64,000 bases of DNA from Cupriavidus sp. MP-37. GTDB lineage: Bacteria > Pseudomonadota > Gammaproteobacteria > Burkholderiales > Burkholderiaceae. The position numbers and the translations under genes are program-made. Numbering within the stretch: the first letter of the stretch is position 1; the number at the start of each line of letters is the position of its first letter. The stretch is from assembly GCF_020618415.1 (NCBI RefSeq), contig NZ_CP085344.1, positions 1,573,001 through 1,637,000 of the forward strand, in the 5' to 3' direction. Below the pieces are notes generated by a model that worked only from the letters and a program-made list of their open reading frames with translations, did not search any database and was not told the origin of the DNA. Positions 12,752 to 25,050 of the stretch are shown here, piece after piece.

Positions 12752-12807
12752 ATGTCACGGAATTGTCATACAGGCAGCATAAAGTTCGTCTTGTCAAAAA
12801 TTTGTCA
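12752..12807 (+). promoter_or_regulatory. Two Pho boxes and promoter of the pst operon
   Basis: PhoB binds direct repeats of TGTCA with 11-bp periodicity. Here TGTCA occurs at 12753 and 12764, and again at 12792 and 12803, each pair exactly 11 bp apart. A -10-like TAAAGT at 12780-12785 sits 16 bases after the second half-site of the first box, the spacing of the E. coli phoA promoter, so the first box probably replaces the -35. The second box lies at or just after the predicted start of transcription. Confidence 0.85.
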
Positions 12808-12835: not shown

Positions 12836-13867
12836 ATGAAGCTGGTCAAGACTGCCGTGGCAGGCATCGTTTCGATGGTGGTGGCGGGTACTGCGTTCGC
12901 GGCGGAAATTACCGGTGCAGGCGCTTCCTTCCCGGCGCCCGTGTATTCCAAGTGGGCCGACGCATATAACAAGGCAACGGGCAACAAGGTCAACTATCAA
13001 TCCATCGGCTCGTCGGGCGGCATCAAGCAGATCGGCGCCAAGACGGTCGATTTCGGTGCCTCGGACGCGCCGCTGAAGGACGAGGACCTGAACAAGCAGG
13101 GCCTGGTCCAGTTCCCGACCGTGATCGGCGGCGTGGTGCCGGTGATCAACCTGCAAGGCGTGAAGCCGGGCGAGCTGACCATCACCGGCGAGGTGCTGGC
13201 CAACATCTACCTGGGCAAGATCAAGAAGTGGGACGATCCCGCGATCAAGGCGCTGAACCCGCAAGCCAAGCTGCCGAGCCAGGACATCCTGCCGGTGCGC
13301 CGCGCCGACGGTTCGGGCACCACCTTCATCTTCACCAACTACCTGTCCAAGGTCAGCGCTGACTGGAAGGGCACGGTGGGCGAGGGCACCACGGTCAACT
13401 GGCCGGGCGGCGGCACCGGCGGCAAGGGCAACGAGGGCGTGGCCGCCTTCGTGCAGCGCCTGAACGGCGCCATCGGCTATGTCGAGTACGCCTACGCCAA
13501 GCAGAACAAGATGACTCACGTGAACATGAAGAACGCGTCGGGTGCCGTGGTCAAGCCGGGTGACGACGCCTTCAAGGCCGCCGCCGCCGGCGCGGACTGG
13601 AGCAAGAGCTACTACCAGATCCTGACCAACCAGCCGGGCAAGGACGCCTGGCCGATCGCCGGCGCCACCTTCATCCTGGTGCACAAGAACCAGGACAAGC
13701 CGGCGCAGGGCGCGGAAGTGCTGAAGTTCTTCGACTGGGCGTACAAGAACGGCACCGGCATGGCCGCCGACCTGGACTACGTGCCGCTGCCGGAAAACGT
13801 CGTCAACCAGATCCGCACGACCTGGAAGTCGGTCGTCAAGGACTCGGCAGGCAAGGCGCTGTACTGA
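12836..13867 (+). CDS. pstS: Periplasmic phosphate-binding protein PstS
   Basis: Captures Pi in the periplasm and delivers it to PstCAB. The 343-residue product has a signal peptide ([22 protein letters not shown], cut before [10 protein letters not shown]), the PstS opening [14 protein letters not shown], the phosphate loops [11 protein letters not shown] and [16 protein letters not shown], and the C-terminal [11 protein letters not shown]. The ATG at 12836 follows CTGGAGGAC. The frame runs back to 12683 through the Pho boxes, so longer starts are rejected. It heads the operon and is probably its most abundant product, helped by the hairpin behind it. Confidence 0.97.
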
Positions 13868-17427: not shown

Positions 17428-18135
17428 ATGCCAAGCAGTATTCTCGTTGTCGAAGACGAACCGGCGATCGCCGAACTGATCGCCGTGAACCTGCAGCACG
17501 CGGGGCATTATCCGATCCGGGCCTATAACGCCGAGCAGGCGCTGTCGCTGATGAGCGATGTGCTGCCCGACCTGGTGCTGCTCGACTGGATGCTCCCGGG
17601 CAAGTCAGGCGCGAACTTCGCCAAGGAGTTGCGCGCCAATGACCGTACCCGCCAGATCCCCATCATCATGCTGACCGCGCGCGGCGAAGAGCAGGACAAG
17701 GTGATGGGGCTTGAAGCCGGTGCCGACGACTATGTCACCAAGCCGTTCTCGCCCAAGGAACTGCTGGCGCGGATCAAGGCGGTGCTACGCCGCCGCGCGC
17801 CGCAGCTGACCGACGACGTGGTGGCGATCAACGGCCTGCGGCTGGACCCGGCCACGCACCGTGTCACCGGCCAGGACGAGAGCGGCCCGATCAAGCTGGA
17901 GCTGGGGCCGACCGAGTTCCGCCTGCTGCACTTCCTGATGACGCACCCAGAGCGCGTGCACAGCCGGTCGCAATTGCTCGACCAGGTCTGGGGCGACCAT
18001 GTCTTCGTCGAGGAACGCACCGTCGATGTCCATATCAAGCGCCTGCGCGCCGCGCTGACCCCGGGCGGCTACAGCAACATGATCGAAACTGTGCGCGGCA
18101 GCGGCTACCGGCTGGCGCGCACTCCTGGCGCCTGA
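17428..18135 (+). CDS. phoB: Phosphate regulon response regulator PhoB
   Basis: DNA-binding regulator of the Pho regulon, activated by PhoR. The 235-residue protein has a receiver domain with phospho-acceptor Asp53 in VLLDWMLPG, the acidic pair in VVEDEPAI, the Thr in MLTARG and the Lys in YVTKPFSPKE, then an OmpR-type winged helix with LGPTEFRLLHFLM and RTVDVHIKRLR. It should bind the TGTCA repeats described before pstS and the acyltransferase gene, and so control its own operon. Confidence 0.97.
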   Translation: MPSSILVVEDEPAIAELIAVNLQHAGHYPIRAYNAEQALSLMSDVLPDLVLLDWMLPGKSGANFAKELRANDRTRQIPIIMLTARGEEQDKVMGLEAGADDYVTKPFSPKELLARIKAVLRRRAPQLTDDVVAINGLRLDPATHRVTGQDESGPIKLELGPTEFRLLHFLMTHPERVHSRSQLLDQVWGDHVFVEERTVDVHIKRLRAALTPGGYSNMIETVRGSGYRLARTPGA

Positions 18136-18256: not shown

Positions 18257-19639
18257 ATGAATGTCATCTGGGCCCGTTCCGCGGCCATCCTGATCAGCCT
18301 GCTGGTGCTGTCCGCCGGCGTCTACCTGGTCGCCGGCCCGGTGCCGGCGCTGGCGCTGGCCTGCGTTTCGCTGCTGGGGCTGCTGTTCTACTACCTGTAC
18401 CAGATCAACCGCCTGTGGAAGGTGCTCGACGCTCCCGTCTACGGCGAGATCCCGAGCGCGCTCGGCCTGTGGGGCGAGGTGTATTACCGCCTGCACCGGC
18501 TGGTCAAGCGCTGGCGCACCCAGGTGCTGCAGGTGGAGCAGCAGCACACGCGCTTTATCCAGGCCATCCAGGCCTCGCCCAACGGCGTGCTGATGCTCGA
18601 TGACGCCGACCAGATCGAGTGGTGCAACGACGTCGCCGAGCAGCATTTCGGCCTGAACGCGCGGCGCGACGTGCGCCAGCGCATTACCCACCTGATCCGC
18701 CGGCCGGAGTTTGTCCATTACCTGACGCGGCAGCAGTTCGACGAGCCGCTGGTGATGCGCGACATGGGCGAGCACAAGCACAGCGTGATCGCGGTGCAGA
18801 TCCTGCCGTATGGCGACAACCGCAAGCTGGTGATCACGCAGGACATCACCAAGCTGGAAAACACCGAGGCGATGCGGCGCGACTTCGTCGCCAATGTCTC
18901 GCATGAATTGAAGACCCCGCTGACCGTGATGACCGGCTTCCTCGAGACCGTGCGCGACCTGCCGGTGTCAGAAGAGGACCGGCGCCGCTACATCGACATG
19001 ATGCTGGCGCAGTCGGTGCGGATGCAGAGCATCGTCGAAGACCTGCTGGCACTGGCCAAGCTGGAAAGCGATGCCCAGCCGCCGGGCCATGACGTGGTGC
19101 CGATCCGCGCCATGGTGGCGCACCTGATGCACGACGCCGAGGCGCTGTCGCAGGGCCGGCACCACGTCGCGGCCGAGATCGATCCGACCGTCGGCATGCG
19201 CGGTGCGGAGACCGAGCTGATGTCGGCGCTGGGCAACCTGGTGTCGAACGCGGTGCGCTACACGCCGGAGGGCGGGCGCATCACCATGCGGCTGGCCTGG
19301 GAAGACGGCCACGCGGTGTTCGCGGTGGCCGATACCGGCCTGGGCATCGCGCCCGAGCATATTCCCCGGCTGACCGAGCGCTTCTACCGCGTCGACCGCA
19401 GCCGCTCGCGCGACACCGGCGGCACCGGACTGGGCCTGGCCATCGTCAAGCACGTGCTGTCGCGCCACCATGCGGAACTGCGCGTGACCAGCGAGGAGGG
19501 TCGGGGCAGCGTGTTCCGCGTGGTGTTCCCGCTGGAGCGCAGCCTGCGCTCCGCCGCCGAAAGCGCCGGCAGCCCGGTGCCGGGGGCGGGTCCGACGGTA
19601 ACGCCGCAGGCACCGGACAGTTCCCGGCGCGCAGCCTGA
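18257..19639 (+). CDS. phoR: Phosphate regulon sensor kinase PhoR
   Basis: Membrane histidine kinase that phosphorylates PhoB when Pi is low. The 460-residue protein has two N-terminal membrane helices (about 5-25 and 28-48), a short charged linker, a PAS domain (about 95-200), the H-box with His216 in NVSHELKTPLTV, the N-box NLVSNAVRYTPEGG, and the DTGLGIAPEHI and GGTGLGLAIVKHV ATP-lid motifs. It has no large periplasmic domain, as usual for PhoR, which senses through PstSCAB-PhoU. A 121-bp gap separates it from phoB. The C terminus has a disordered tail of about 35 residues. Confidence 0.96.
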   Translation: MNVIWARSAAILISLLVLSAGVYLVAGPVPALALACVSLLGLLFYYLYQINRLWKVLDAPVYGEIPSALGLWGEVYYRLHRLVKRWRTQVLQVEQQHTRFIQAIQASPNGVLMLDDADQIEWCNDVAEQHFGLNARRDVRQRITHLIRRPEFVHYLTRQQFDEPLVMRDMGEHKHSVIAVQILPYGDNRKLVITQDITKLENTEAMRRDFVANVSHELKTPLTVMTGFLETVRDLPVSEEDRRRYIDMMLAQSVRMQSIVEDLLALAKLESDAQPPGHDVVPIRAMVAHLMHDAEALSQGRHHVAAEIDPTVGMRGAETELMSALGNLVSNAVRYTPEGGRITMRLAWEDGHAVFAVADTGLGIAPEHIPRLTERFYRVDRSRSRDTGGTGLGLAIVKHVLSRHHAELRVTSEEGRGSVFRVVFPLERSLRSAAESAGSPVPGAGPTVTPQAPDSSRRAA

Positions 19640-19693: not shown

Positions 19694-21781
19694 TCAGGGC
19701 GTGCCGCCGAACATCACCAGCAGATCGTTCTGGCTGACATGCGGATGCTTGGAGCGCGTCTGCTTGCGCACGTAGTTGCCATCCGATTGCATGATCCACG
19801 CCGACGCATTGTCGCGCAGGTGCACCTGCAGGCTTTCCTTGATGACGCGCGCCTTGAGCGCCTTGTCCAGTACCGGGAACGCGACCTCCACGCGGCGGAA
19901 CAGGTTGCGGTCCATCCAGTCGGCGCTGGAGAGGTAGAGCACCTCTTCGCCGGCGGCGTGGAAGTAGTAGACGCGGTGGTGTTCCAGGAAACGCCCGATG
20001 ATCGAGCGCACCGAAATGTTCTCGGACATGCCCGGCACGCCCGGCATCAGCGCGCACACGCCGCGCACGATCAGGTCGATCTTCACGCCGGCGCGCGAGG
20101 CCTTGTACAGCTCGTCGATGATCGACGGTTCCAGCAGCGCGTTCATCTTGGCGATGATGCGCGCCGGCTTGCCTGCGCGCGCGTGGCGAGCCTCGGCGCG
20201 GATATGGTCGACCAGGTTGCTCTGCATGGTGAACGGCGACTGCCACAGGTGGTTCAGCCGGATCGTGCCGGCCGTGCCGGTCAGCAGCTGGAACACATGG
20301 TGCACGTCTTCGCAGATGGCCTCGTCGGCGGTCAGCAGCCCGAAGTCGGTATAGAGCCGGGCCGTGCGCGGGTGGTAGTTGCCGGTGCCCAGGTGGGCAT
20401 AGCGGCGCAGCTTGACCTGCTTGGCCTTCGGCCCGGTGGGTTCGCGCCGCACGATCAGCAGCATCTTGGCGTGGCACTTGTGCCCGACCACGCCGTAGAT
20501 CACATGCGCGCCGGCCGACTCCAGCCGCTCGGCCCAGTTGATATTGGTTTCCTCGTCGAAGCGCGCCAGCAGTTCCACCACCACCGTCACTTCCTTGCCG
20601 TTGCGCGCGGCGGTCATCAGCGCTTCCATCACCAGCGATTCGTTGCCGGTGCGGTAGACCGTCTGCTTGATCGCGACCACGTTGGGATCGGCCGCGGCCA
20701 GCTGCAGCAAGTCCAGCACGGAGCTGAAACTCTCGTAGGGATGGTGCAGCAGCACGTCCTGCTGGCGCATCACGTCGAACATCGATACGCCGCCGGAAAA
20801 TACCTTGACCGGCGCCGGCACATAGGGCGGGAACTTGAGCGCCGGCCGGTCGACCATGTCCGGGATCTGCATCAGCCGCACCAGGTTCACCGGGCCGGAA
20901 ACTCGGTACAGGTCGTGTTCGGCGAGGCCCGATTCCAGCAGCAGCCGGCGCGCCAGCGGGGCGGGCGTATCGGAAGAGATTTCCAGCCGCACCGTGTCGC
21001 CGAAATGGCGCGCGGGCAGTTCGCCTTGCAGCGCTTCGCGCAGGTCGGTGATGTCGTCCTCCGACACGAACAGGTCGGAGTTGCGCGTGACGCGGAACTG
21101 GTAACAGCCATGCACGGCGATGGCCGGAAACAGTTCGTGCACGAACCCCTGCATGAACGACGACAGCATGACAAAGCCGTACGGATAGCCCGACAGCTTC
21201 TCCGGCATCTTCACCACCCGCGGCAGCGCGCGCGGCGCCTGCACGATGGCCAGGTCGGCATCGCGCCCGAAAGCATCCTTGCCGGACAGCTCCACCACGA
21301 AGTTCAGGCTCTTGTTGAGCACGCGCGGGAAGGGGTGGGCCGGATCCAGGGCAATGGGGGTCAGCACCGGCGCCAGCTCGCGCTGGAAGAACTGGCGCGC
21401 CCATTCACGCTGGGCGTCGGTCCAGGTGGTGGTCAGGTGGAAAAAGACCCCTTCTTTTTCAAGTAATGGAAAAATGGTGTTCTGCAGCATGTCATACTGC
21501 GAAGCCACAAGCCGTTGCGTGCGCTCGGTGACAAGCTGGTAGGTCTGCTGGAACGAGAGGCCATCCGGCGTCAGGCCCGAGGCGTTGTCGCGCATCTGTT
21601 CCTTCAGGCCCGCCATGCGGATTTCAAAGAACTCGTCCAGGTTGCTGGATACGATGCAGATGAACTTCAGCCGCTCGAGCAGCGGGACTTTCGGGTCCGC
21701 GGCTTGCGCCAGCACGCGGGCATTGAATTCCAGGATGCCCAGTTCGCGATTGAGCAGCGTACTGGACGGAGTCGTCGACAT
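19694..21781 (-). CDS. ppk: Polyphosphate kinase 1
   Basis: Reversibly polymerises the ATP gamma-phosphate into inorganic polyphosphate. The 695-residue protein has the N domain (LLNRELGILEFNARVLAQA), the helical domain with SNLDEFFEIR, and two PLD-like catalytic domains. The phospho-acceptor His is in the YGVVGHKCHAKMLLI segment, and the second catalytic region holds GNYHPRTARLYTDFGL. I chose the ATG at 21781 because AGAAGG lies 8 bases upstream; in-frame ATGs at 21787 and 21820 lack a better site. It converges with phoR and diverges from ppx across a region with phased TGTCA-like half-sites, so Pho control is plausible. Confidence 0.95.
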   Translation of the reverse strand: MSTTPSSTLLNRELGILEFNARVLAQAADPKVPLLERLKFICIVSSNLDEFFEIRMAGLKEQMRDNASGLTPDGLSFQQTYQLVTERTQRLVASQYDMLQNTIFPLLEKEGVFFHLTTTWTDAQREWARQFFQRELAPVLTPIALDPAHPFPRVLNKSLNFVVELSGKDAFGRDADLAIVQAPRALPRVVKMPEKLSGYPYGFVMLSSFMQGFVHELFPAIAVHGCYQFRVTRNSDLFVSEDDITDLREALQGELPARHFGDTVRLEISSDTPAPLARRLLLESGLAEHDLYRVSGPVNLVRLMQIPDMVDRPALKFPPYVPAPVKVFSGGVSMFDVMRQQDVLLHHPYESFSSVLDLLQLAAADPNVVAIKQTVYRTGNESLVMEALMTAARNGKEVTVVVELLARFDEETNINWAERLESAGAHVIYGVVGHKCHAKMLLIVRREPTGPKAKQVKLRRYAHLGTGNYHPRTARLYTDFGLLTADEAICEDVHHVFQLLTGTAGTIRLNHLWQSPFTMQSNLVDHIRAEARHARAGKPARIIAKMNALLEPSIIDELYKASRAGVKIDLIVRGVCALMPGVPGMSENISVRSIIGRFLEHHRVYYFHAAGEEVLYLSSADWMDRNLFRRVEVAFPVLDKALKARVIKESLQVHLRDNASAWIMQSDGNYVRKQTRSKHPHVSQNDLLVMFGGTP

Positions 21782-21826
21782 GGTCATGACCTTCTTTTGG
21801 TAATGTGGCGACTTTTTCATAGAATC

Positions 21827-21879
21827 GTGTCACTTTCATGACAGTTTGATTTTGTCATGATGCCGACATGACCACGACA
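21827..21879. promoter_or_regulatory. Cluster of Pho-box-like half-sites between ppk and ppx
   Basis: On the strand reading into ppk, TGTCA and TGACA begin 11 bases apart (21843 and 21832), and TGTCG, TGTCG and TGACA begin at 21879, 21868 and 21857, again 11 apart. Read the other way similar phasing appears because the half-sites are partly palindromic. The first pair agrees with the E. coli Pho consensus at about 14 of 18 positions. No convincing -10 fixes the orientation, so this is a candidate only. Confidence 0.45.
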
Positions 21880-21974
21880 TATTTTTCCCGGGCCCGAATC
21901 GCGGCAGGCCAAGGCTCCAGCGTGTTCCTGCCGTGCTTCGCAACGCCAACGCGAACTTGCCCTCCAAGCACACG

Positions 21975-23507
21975 ATGAACAACACTCCACGCCTGCTGGC
22001 CGCCGTCGACATGGGCTCGAACAGCTTCCGCCTGATGATCGGGCGGGTGGACGAGACCCCCACGGCCAATGGCCCGGCCAGCCAGATCTTCCAGGTCGAC
22101 GCGCTGCGCGAGCCGGTGCGGCTGGCGGCCGGGCTGACGCCCGACAAATACCTGGACCAGCCCGCCCGGCGGCGCGGCATCGATGCGCTGCGGCGCTTCG
22201 GCGACCGCCTGCGCGAGTTCGCGCCGGGACAGGTGCGCGCGGTTGCCACCAATACGCTGCGCGTGGCCAGGAACGCCTCTGAATTCCTGATCGAGGCCGA
22301 GGGCGCGCTGGGCTTCCCGATCGAAGTGATCGCCGGGCGCGAAGAGGCGCGGCTGATCTACCTGGGCGCCTCGCACGATGCACCCGCCTGCCAGGGTAAC
22401 CGCCTGGTGGTCGATATCGGTGGCGGCTCGACCGAGTTCATCATCGGCAACGGCTACCAGTCCAAGCTGATGGAAAGCCTGTATATCGGCTGCGTCTCGC
22501 ACAGCCGCCAGTTTTTCCCCAGCGGCAATGTCGACGAATACGCGATGAAGCAGGCCGAGCTGGCGGCGCGCCGCGAGATCCAGGTGCTGGTGCGCCAGTA
22601 CCGTGCCGCGGGCTGGGAACAGGCGGTGGGCTCGTCGGGGACCGCGCGCGCGCTGGCCGAGCTGATCGAGCTCAACGGCATGAACGACAGCAATGCCGAG
22701 CACGGCATCACGCGCGAAGGCCTGGAGCGACTCAAGCGCGCGCTGATCAAGGCCGAGAACACCAACCGCGTCAAGCTGACCGGCCTCAAGCCGGACCGCA
22801 TCCCGGTGCTGCCCGGCGGGCTGTCGATCATGCTGGGCGTGTTCGCCGAACTCGATATCGAGCGCATGGACGTGACCGACGGCGCGTTGCGGCTGGGCGT
22901 GCTGTACGACCTGCTCGGCCGCAGCCACCATGAGGACATGCGCACGGTCACGGTGGACCAGTTCATGCGCCGCTACGGCGTCGACCGCGCGCAGGCCAGC
23001 CGCGTGCGGCGCACCGCGCAGACGCTGCTGTCACAGTTCCCGGATCCGGCCAATGAACGGCGCGAGGACAACCTGGCTCTGCTGGGCTGGGCGGCCAGCC
23101 TGCATGAGATCGGCATGTCGATCTCGCACAGCGGCTACCACAAGCATTCCGCCTACATCGCCACGCATGCCGACATGCCGGGCTTCTCCAAGACCGACCA
23201 GGCGCGGCTGGCGACGCTGCTGCTGGGCCATGCGGGCAAGCTGGGCAAGCTGTCGGGCAGCGGCAAGTTCGTCGACTGGCGCATGCTGTTCAGCCTGCGC
23301 CTGGCCTTTGTGCTGTGCCGGCGCCGCTCGGATGTGGCGCTGCCGGACATCCGTGTCGCGCAGCTGGCCGAGGCGCTGGACGAAGGCTTTACCGTGCGGC
23401 TGCCGAAGGCGTGGATCGACGCCAATCCGCTGATCGAATACAGCCTGGCCCAGGAAGCCGACGAGTGGCAGCGCATCGGCAAGCGCTACAAGGTGGTCTA
23501 CGACTGA
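21975..23507 (+). CDS. ppx: Exopolyphosphatase, Ppx/GppA family
   Basis: Releases Pi from the ends of polyphosphate; Ppx/GppA proteins may also hydrolyse pppGpp. The 510-residue product opens with the ASKHA signature AAVDMGSNSFRLMIGR, has the second phosphate loop VVDIGGGSTEFIIGNG and the glycine loop VGSSGTARAL, and then an HD-like C-terminal helical domain from about 315. The ATG at 21975 gives MNNTPRLLAAVDMGSNS; a GTG at 21933 would add 14 residues. No strong ribosome site is visible for either. It is divergent from ppk, a common arrangement in beta-proteobacteria. Confidence 0.94.
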   Translation: MNNTPRLLAAVDMGSNSFRLMIGRVDETPTANGPASQIFQVDALREPVRLAAGLTPDKYLDQPARRRGIDALRRFGDRLREFAPGQVRAVATNTLRVARNASEFLIEAEGALGFPIEVIAGREEARLIYLGASHDAPACQGNRLVVDIGGGSTEFIIGNGYQSKLMESLYIGCVSHSRQFFPSGNVDEYAMKQAELAARREIQVLVRQYRAAGWEQAVGSSGTARALAELIELNGMNDSNAEHGITREGLERLKRALIKAENTNRVKLTGLKPDRIPVLPGGLSIMLGVFAELDIERMDVTDGALRLGVLYDLLGRSHHEDMRTVTVDQFMRRYGVDRAQASRVRRTAQTLLSQFPDPANERREDNLALLGWAASLHEIGMSISHSGYHKHSAYIATHADMPGFSKTDQARLATLLLGHAGKLGKLSGSGKFVDWRMLFSLRLAFVLCRRRSDVALPDIRVAQLAEALDEGFTVRLPKAWIDANPLIEYSLAQEADEWQRIGKRYKVVYD

Positions 23508-23574: not shown

Positions 23575-24417
23575 TCAGGCGGCGTTGTTCAGGCCCAGGA
23601 AGTGGCGGGCGTAGCGCGGGTTCATGTCGTTCACGCGCAGCAGCGTGAGGAAGTCGGCCACGTTGAAGTCCGGGTCCCAGGCCGGCTGGCCGCAGATCTT
23701 CGCACCCAGGCGCAGGTAGCCCTTGATCAGCGCGGGCGGCTCGACCGCCAACTGCTGGTTCAGGTCTTCCACCGGCAGCGGCAGGCGCGGGAACGCGTGG
23801 TACTCGATCGGTGCCAGCGAGCGCTCGGTGAACAGCCGGTGCAGGCTGGCCGCGTAGTGGCCGCCGTCGCTCATCGGCACGCTGGCGCAGCCCAGCATCG
23901 ATTCGATGCCCCAGCGCTGCAGGTACTCGCCCAGCCCGCCCCACAGCGCCATGATGACGCTGCCGGAGCGGTAGTCGCGGTGCACGCATGAGCGGCCCAG
24001 TTCCAGCATCTTGGGGCGCAGGTGCGACAGGCGCACCAGGTCGAATTCCGACTCGGCGTACAGGCAGCCCAGGCGCTTGGCCTGGTGCGGCGGCAGCACG
24101 CGGTAGGTGCCGACCACGCGCAGCGTGGCCATGTCGCGCACGATCAGGTGGTCGCAGTAGGCATCGAACATGTCGATGTCCAGTTCGGGCACCGAAGACG
24201 TCAGGCGCGCGCCCATTTCCTCGGCAAAGACCTTGTAGCGCAGGCGCTGGGCCTCGACTACTTCATCCTGGTGGCGCGCCCACGCCACGCTGAGAACAGG
24301 CGACTCATGTGCCGGTGTATCCGATGGGCGATGAAGACGCCTCCGCGCCGTCTGGCCGCCGAGGCCATTGGGCAGGGAGTCGAAGAGCGGCTGGGTAGGC
24401 GTCGGCAGATCTCGCAT
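23575..24417 (-). CDS. OlsB-like GNAT N-acyltransferase (ornithine lipid type)
   Basis: A 280-residue member of the COG3176/GNAT-like acyltransferase group that includes OlsB, which joins a 3-hydroxyacyl chain from acyl carrier protein to the alpha-amine of ornithine, the first step to phosphorus-free ornithine lipid. The acyltransferase core starts about residue 43 (AWARHQDEVVEAQRLRYKVFAEEMGA), with FDAYCDHLIVRD and GTYRVLPP next and LELGRSCVHRDYRSGSVIMALWGG later, all typical. The ATG at 24417 has AAAAGGAC 8 bases upstream; a longer frame crosses the Pho sites and is rejected. olsA is not in the window, so an OlsB role is inferred. Confidence 0.75.
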   Translation of the reverse strand: MRDLPTPTQPLFDSLPNGLGGQTARRRLHRPSDTPAHESPVLSVAWARHQDEVVEAQRLRYKVFAEEMGARLTSSVPELDIDMFDAYCDHLIVRDMATLRVVGTYRVLPPHQAKRLGCLYAESEFDLVRLSHLRPKMLELGRSCVHRDYRSGSVIMALWGGLGEYLQRWGIESMLGCASVPMSDGGHYAASLHRLFTERSLAPIEYHAFPRLPLPVEDLNQQLAVEPPALIKGYLRLGAKICGQPAWDPDFNVADFLTLLRVNDMNPRYARHFLGLNNAA

Positions 24418-24453: not shown

Positions 24454-24508
24454 AATGTAGTGAGGGCCGGTGACAGTGCCGTGACCTCGCGATGACGGTT
24501 GCGTGACT
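24454..24508 (-). promoter_or_regulatory. Four phased Pho half-sites and promoter of the acyltransferase gene
   Basis: Reading left (minus strand), four GTCA-containing half-sites (AGTCA, CGTCA, GGTCA, TGTCA) lie exactly 11 bp apart; on the plus strand TGAC starts at 24504, 24493, 24482 and 24471. A -10-like TACATT at 24459-24454 stands 16 bases after the start of the last half-site, the same geometry as E. coli phoA and the pst promoter here. The gene start at 24417 is then about 30 bases after the expected transcription start. This reads as a PhoB-activated promoter. Confidence 0.8.
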
Positions 24509-24573
24509 TCGGCAGCCGGGCCTGTTCGGGAGGGCTTGAGGGGCACACAGGTCGGTGCCGCACCCCCGCAGGC

Positions 24574-25050
24574 TCAGAGGAATTCGGGATTGATGACCGC
24601 GCGCAGCACGGTCTGCGCCTCGCTTTCGCGGGTACGGCCGGTGAGCCACCAGATGCCGCCTTTGCGCACGCTCCAGTTCATTTCGGCGCCCGCCAGCAGC
24701 AGGCTGGCGACGCGGCCGATCCAGGGCTGGTGGCCGACCACCACCACGTGCTCGGCGCGCTCGGGCCATTCGACCGCGGCGAGCACGGCGCTGACATCGG
24801 CGCCCGGGGCCAGGGCATCGAGGATTTCCGCCTCGCCGGTCAGCGCCGCCGCGGTTTCGCGGGCGCGCACGGCGGGACTGCACAGGATGCGGGTATCGGC
24901 GGGCAGGTGGGCACGCAGCCATTTGGCCGAAGCCTCGGCCTGCTTGCGGCCGCGGCGCGTCAGCGGCCGCTGCAGATCGGCATGCCGGCTAAGGCTGAGG
25001 GCGTCGGGAAGGTCTTCGGCTTCGGCATGGCGCCACAGGATCAGGTTCAT
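24574..25050 (-). CDS. SixA-like phosphohistidine phosphatase
   Basis: A 158-residue histidine-phosphatase-superfamily protein. The catalytic RHAEAED motif lies at residues 7-13 (the phospho-accepting His is the second residue), an Arg in TRRGRKQAEASA follows, CSPAVRARETA fits the substrate pocket, and the second catalytic His is in VVVGHQPWIG. Size and pattern match SixA, which dephosphorylates phosphohistidine on phosphotransfer proteins; a small-molecule phosphatase cannot be excluded. The ATG at 25050 gives MNLILWRHAEAEDL; no clear Shine-Dalgarno is seen. The Pho-type promoter of the next leftward gene lies just beyond its stop. Confidence 0.8.
   Translation of the reverse strand: MNLILWRHAEAEDLPDALSLSRHADLQRPLTRRGRKQAEASAKWLRAHLPADTRILCSPAVRARETAAALTGEAEILDALAPGADVSAVLAAVEWPERAEHVVVVGHQPWIGRVASLLLAGAEMNWSVRKGGIWWLTGRTRESEAQTVLRAVINPEFL

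Follow-up and report, generated by a model that had tools for sequence, protein, structure and literature searches.

The 54 bp in front of a leftward acyltransferase gene of Cupriavidus sp. MP-37 raise the question of whether this gene is under phosphate control, and of what four regularly spaced PhoB half-sites would do there. The stretch analyzed (the window) is 64,000 nucleotides long, and its relevant features are collected in the table. Read on the minus strand from 24507 to 24454, the element is GTCA-N7-GTCA-N7-GTCA-N7-GTCA-N11-TACATT. TGAC starts exactly at 24471, 24482, 24493, and 24504, as described in the initial annotation, which gives four minus-strand GTCA half-sites (rungs) with an 11-bp period. 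The -10-like TACATT, placed by the same annotation at the Pho distance, indeed lies N11 from the last rung, as at pstS; E. coli Pho promoters have the same spacing, and no sigma-70 -35/-10 pair was found at the element by scan. The array can also be described as two tandem 22-bp units, 24468-24489 and 24490-24511, that are 77% alike. A full TGTCA is not present in each half-site, as T precedes rung 1 alone. Strong E. coli sites have TGTCA in every half-site, which is not obligatory.

Table. Features of the olsB and Pho regions (window positions) and of the second ladder
Feature	Position	Strand	Remark
pstS two-rung Pho site GTCA-N7-GTCA-N11-TAAAGT	12754..12785	+	kept in 23/23 Cupriavidus loci examined
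pstS, from ATG 12836	12836..13867	+	PF12849
phoB	17428..18135	+	PF00072 + PF00486
phoR	18257..19639	+	PF11808 PhoR, HisKA, HATPase_c
ppk1	19694..21820	-	TIGR03705, 943.8 bits, above cut-off
ppx two-rung Pho site GTCA-N7-GACA-N11-TATTTT	21854..21885	+	similar site in 28/48 named Cupriavidus/Ralstonia loci scanned
ppx	21933..23507	+	PF02541, PF21447
OlsB-type N-acyltransferase gene (ATG at 24417, 280 aa)	23575..24417	-	PF13444
-10-like TACATT	24454..24459	-	11 nt past rung 1; -10 in phase in 37/37 Cupriavidus promoters
Rung 1 (proximal) GTCA, T in front (TGTCA)	24471..24474	-	invariant in 54 distinct rows
Rung 2 GTCA	24482..24485	-	TTCA or GCCA in many relatives
Rung 3 GTCA	24493..24496	-	GTCA in all 54 distinct Cupriavidus rows
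Rung 4 (distal) GTCA	24504..24507	-	at least 3/4 letters kept in 35/35 Cupriavidus promoters
sixA-like phosphohistidine phosphatase gene, upstream of olsB	24574..25050	-	PF00300; TIGR00249 69.7 bits, just under cut-off 74.5
Second ladder and cluster	L305:3005-5690 (C1:2833305 onward)		

With up to three mismatches the four-rung motif matches once in the window, at zero mismatches, against a shuffle expectation of 0.35, and with up to two mismatches it matches six times in the 6,114,217-b genome versus three for a reversed control, the olsB ladder being the sole 16/16 (0-mismatch) one. Genome-wide, the three-rung pattern showed no excess (five matches, two of them the olsB ladder read twice, versus four in the control), and CTGTCA-N6-CTGTCA with one mismatch gave no clear signal (17 versus 12). 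The strict pattern GTCA-N7-GTCA-N11-TA[ACT]NNT matches twice in the window, at pstS and at olsB. A 15/16 ladder at C1:2131514, which by eye has no phased -10 or convincing gene, was taken as chance. A rightward promoter was also discarded; the olsB-type and sixA-like genes share one strand, and no rightward gene could be established.

The 280-aa product of the gene contains a single Pfam domain, PF13444 (Acetyltransf_5 GNAT, 127.6 bits), and its best two NCBIfam models are both OlsB, with 168.7 bits (cut-off 320) and 165.5 bits (cut-off 350). The equivalog cut-offs are not reached; judging by their names, these models seem to be built on other lineages. The proposed ornithine-lipid-type acyltransferase is supported by the domain and the best models and falls short at the curated thresholds; the gene, the genome's one match of its kind, is called OlsB-type here by homology.

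Conservation of the ladder in Cupriavidus and Ralstonia had been set as a test beforehand. The olsB-type gene is present in all 36 same-genus genomes, and 35 upstream regions were available, one gene (in G032) being cut at a contig end. On a 16-letter ladder score, these Cupriavidus promoters reached 16/16 (n = 14), 15/16 (n = 20), or 14/16 (n = 1). In this 35-genome set the cores of rungs 4 to 1 carry 1.95, 2.0, 1.64, and 2.0 bits, and the next two phased upstream positions 0.34 and 0.35 bits; the constrained stretch starts at rung 4, and sequence further upstream is not conserved. An alignment of 77 rows (partly from the same organisms, 54 distinct) was anchored on TACATT rather than on the ladder, with locus L091 left out as it lacks upstream sequence; T precedes rung 4 in none of the 54 distinct rows. 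Across 23 genomes rung 2 is GTCA in 8, TTCA in 14, and GCCA in 1, and the perfect ladder is thus a lineage variant of a four-rung design. In Ralstonia (genus g48) the expectation is borne out only in the form of a shifted array: GTCA-GCCA-TTCA-GTCA in 11-bp steps is followed 20 nt further by a GTCG and a GTCA that are phased with TAGAAT. This arrangement, with the array 20 nt beyond a phased GTCG-GTCA-N11-TAGAAT, was observed about 115 to 125 nt before the olsB match in loci L093 to L105.

The gene order around the element is pstS, permease, ATPase, phoB, phoR, ppk1 (-), ppx (+), olsB-type (-), sixA-like (-), and infA (-), with the second permease and phoU assigned by position only. The genome encodes a matching PhoB, whose DNA-binding domain aligns with that of E. 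coli PhoB (1gxp) with an E value of 1e-39. The earlier idea of a Pho-controlled neighborhood agrees with the run pst-phoBR-ppk-ppx-olsB and with phased two-rung sites at pstS and ppx; in the direction of ppk the ppk-ppx gap offers half-site pairs but showed no phased -10. Both strands of this gap (window 21820-21933) are densely set with GTCA/GACA half-sites. The regular expression for the ppx two-rung site found no match in 20 of the 48 named Cupriavidus/Ralstonia loci. Elsewhere in the genome, phoX has two rungs, GTCA and GCCA, followed by TAAATT; a two-rung site was found for one of two PF05787 genes and for neither of two PF09423 genes, scanned up to 600 bp from the domain match. The pstS promoter has another pair of half-sites, GTCAAAAATTTGTCA (window 12793-12807), that is highly conserved and lies past its -10, close to where the start site is likely to be; it may serve as an additional Pho box or for autoregulation, as a site in the E. 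coli phoB promoter does (PMC6194859).

The four-rung design extends beyond the genus. In the family set 102 of 120 genomes matched, 10 of them from the same genus; the 92 others supplied 90 upstream regions, after G114 (too close to a contig end) and G149 (broken gene) had been left out. A more distant set matched in 45 of 143 genomes, and besides the genome itself the 20 matches stronger than 1e-40 were used. Counted strictly, as contiguous rungs in phase with the -10, four rungs are present in 80 of 127 same-family promoters, including 37 from Cupriavidus (g1), and in 9 of the 20 more distant ones, whereas single-base shuffles produced four phased rungs in 0/7350 cases and three in 0.07%. 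By genus, four rungs were found in g1 (37/37), g33 (10/10), g35 (10/10), g37 (3/3), g40 (3/3), g41 (1/1), g44 (8/8), g49 (6/9), and g34 (2/9). The same count found no four phased rungs in g28 (n = 1), g31 (4), g36 (9), g39 (2), g42 (3), g45 (6), g46 (2), g47 (1), and g48 (9). Altogether 47 of the 127 family promoters lack them, including all nine of Ralstonia and those of six genera with at least two genomes (g31, g36, g39, g42, g45, and g46); the strict rule rejects GTCG, which lowers the counts for g34 and g48. The 16-letter score is less strict, and 8 of 14 same-order regions and 9 of the 22 distant loci with names (L108-L129) reached at least 13/16 on it, with Thiomonas, Roseateles, Rubrivivax, and Gulbenkiania represented; the remaining 6 and 13, respectively, fell below 13/16. 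The genomes of g36, g42, g45, and g46 are mostly 1.3 to 2.8 Mb and contain the olsB-type gene without a phased four-rung ladder.

A second four-rung ladder, scoring 15/16, is located at C1:2833305. The genes that follow it encode a PF00149 metallophosphoesterase, a glycosyltransferase of family 4, and a diacylglycerol kinase of the prokaryotic type (PF01219). This cluster is likely a second Pho-controlled lipid-remodeling operon, judging by its ladder and gene content. The metallophosphoesterase has no NCBIfam PlcP match, its best model being an LpxH-type diphosphatase (38.1 bits, cut-off 134), and the designation PlcP-type rests on gene layout rather than on a curated model. Of 24 Cupriavidus genomes searched, one had no match, and in all 23 loci found the plcP ladder scores 13 to 15/16. 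Matches were obtained in 37 other genomes of the family, and among the best 26 loci the score is at least 13/16 in 20 and 11 to 12 in 6; the distal rungs of these ladders are often GTAA and TTCT.

The pstS, olsB, and plcP promoters were compared over the 23 Cupriavidus genomes for which all three were available. The pstS promoter presents two rungs upstream of a TANAGT -10, with T before 46/46 rungs and a linker AT content of 0.48 to 0.58. In contrast, olsB presents four rungs, with T before rung 1 in 23/23 but before rungs 2 and 3 in only 1/46, and linker AT of 0.05 to 0.33. The plcP promoter also has four rungs, with T before rungs 1 to 3 in 0/69, a -10 of CTGAAT, CTCAAT, or CCCAAT, and linker AT of 0.19 at the two proximal rungs and 0.59 at the two distal rungs. 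As TGTCA is the full core of the E. coli PhoB half-site (PMC6194859), the lipid promoters seem to combine a larger number of sites with a mostly lower strength of each. The "strong" promoter of the initial annotation finds no support in the sequence: T is missing before three of the four olsB rungs and the linkers are GC rich, both unlike pstS in the same genomes. Four mostly T-less rungs against two TGTCA at pstS suggest a cooperative, perhaps later switch rather than a simply strong one; strength is possible, but a cooperative, sharper, and perhaps later response would fit the sequence at least as well. By eye, pstS of g31, g33, g35, g37, g40, and g44 has about four upstream half-sites, as two pairs set apart by a 10-bp rather than an 11-bp step. 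Given this extra upstream pair and the pstS pair downstream of the -10, the contrast of two versus four is limited to Cupriavidus and three Ralstonia genomes and does not apply to the whole family.

The element is very probably a PhoB promoter of a known kind, and there is high confidence in the more specific prediction that 24454-24507 forms the PhoB-dependent promoter of the olsB-type gene, with two PhoB~P dimers on four half-sites. The analysis establishes the sequence, its phase, the conservation of all four rungs, the missing -35 match, and the nearby phoB and phoR, whereas PhoB binding, the Pi response, the enzyme activity, and the role of the distal pair are inferred. Against this reading count the OlsB scores under the cut-offs, the 47 family promoters without four phased rungs, the distant relatives below 13/16, and the constitutive ornithine lipid of Burkholderia sensu stricto; the sharp Pi regulation suggested in the initial annotation would be a prediction. 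Under Pi starvation PhoR would phosphorylate PhoB, and two PhoB~P dimers would bind head to tail to the four 11-bp half-sites, that is, to two tandem 22-bp boxes. By analogy with E. coli PhoB, the proximal dimer, bound 11 nt ahead of the -10, would replace the -35 and help sigma-70 RNA polymerase, while the distal dimer may stabilize the proximal one. The product would then N-acylate ornithine, the first step to phosphorus-free ornithine lipid.

A chance repeat is refuted by conservation of the ladder across relatives and has a negligible probability. The genome's three-rung patterns, no commoner than in the control, would suit it, but the uniqueness of the ladder in window and genome, its conservation in 35/35 genus promoters, the information content of its rungs, and the shuffles do not. 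It is very improbable that the repeat is read by an OmpR/PhoB-family regulator other than PhoB: PmrA, KdpE, and RstA of the same family are described as binding tandem direct repeats as well, yet the same GTCA period and -10 phase recur before pstS and a PhoX gene, and the PhoB DNA-binding domain is close to that of E. coli. The proximal pair (rungs 1 and 2) might be the only acting Pho box, with rungs 3 and 4 as a redundant second box or the site of another binder, as two half-sites make one Pho box (PMC4415409) and two rungs precede the -10 of pstS in these genomes. This is unlikely, since rungs 3 and 4 are conserved like rung 1 (2.0 and 1.95 bits), conservation ends just past them, and four phased rungs recur in other genera.

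An extension of the PhoB explanation, rather than an alternative to it, is that the timing depends on how many rungs there are and how good they are. With two TGTCA, pstS would be induced early, whereas the four mostly weaker rungs of olsB and plcP would need more PhoB~P and act cooperatively, giving late and sharp membrane remodeling; we consider this doubtful. The T counts given above, the TGTCA core of E. coli (PMC6194859), and the two rungs of phoX speak for it. Against it stand the conserved pair of half-sites past the -10 of pstS, the roughly four upstream half-sites with a 10-bp step seen by eye at pstS in g31, g33, g35, g37, g40, and g44, and the AT-rich distal linkers of plcP. Equally tentative is the proposal that rung number and quality split the Pho regulon of Cupriavidus, with two TGTCA for Pi uptake (pstS) and four mostly T-less rungs for both lipid-replacement arms (olsB and plcP-glycosyltransferase-dgkA). 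The ladder would then be a cooperative threshold gate, and the costly exchange of lipids would not begin before PhoB~P has reached a high level.

These promoters, with the same PhoB and the same -10 spacing but two versus four half-sites, offer a possible test case for one response regulator ordering its targets by promoter build. They also extend the predicted link between Pi and ornithine lipid to Cupriavidus, an industrial genus, and give two lipid-remodeling promoters one design.

Pho control of olsB has already been predicted or shown elsewhere (PMC7814305, PMC11828411). In Burkholderia sensu lato, as in Cupriavidus, a Pho box is predicted before the olsB homologue, in 21/43 genomes with a first matrix and, with a second one whose data PMC7814305 does not show, in every one of the 43. 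Its 18-bp matrix, however, corresponds to two half-sites, and the passages of that paper covered here mention neither Cupriavidus or Ralstonia nor a four-rung array. In Burkholderia sensu stricto ornithine lipid is described as constitutive despite predicted Pho boxes before olsB (PMC7814305). In Acinetobacter, olsB is induced in low Pi and preceded by a Pho box, as predicted for the Cupriavidus ladder, but that box is described as one CTGTCATNNNNCTGTCAT box (PMC11828411). The PlcP-Agt system of lipid renovation pairs a metallophosphoesterase and a glycosyltransferase with a Pho box (PMC8528852, PMC4796936), a layout resembling that of the second cluster, which differs from these descriptions in its four-rung ladder and the dgkA-type gene behind. 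Pho operators with several 11-nt direct repeats per promoter are known from E. coli ugp and from Streptomyces PhoP (PMC4415409); they belong to other genes and lineages, whereas in the olsB ladder all four repeats share one register with the -10. A four-rung build common to two lipid-remodeling promoters was not found among the literature matches listed, which did not include subscription journals and supplements. What is new here is the conserved four-rung olsB promoter and the same build before a plcP-type, probably lipid-remodeling cluster.
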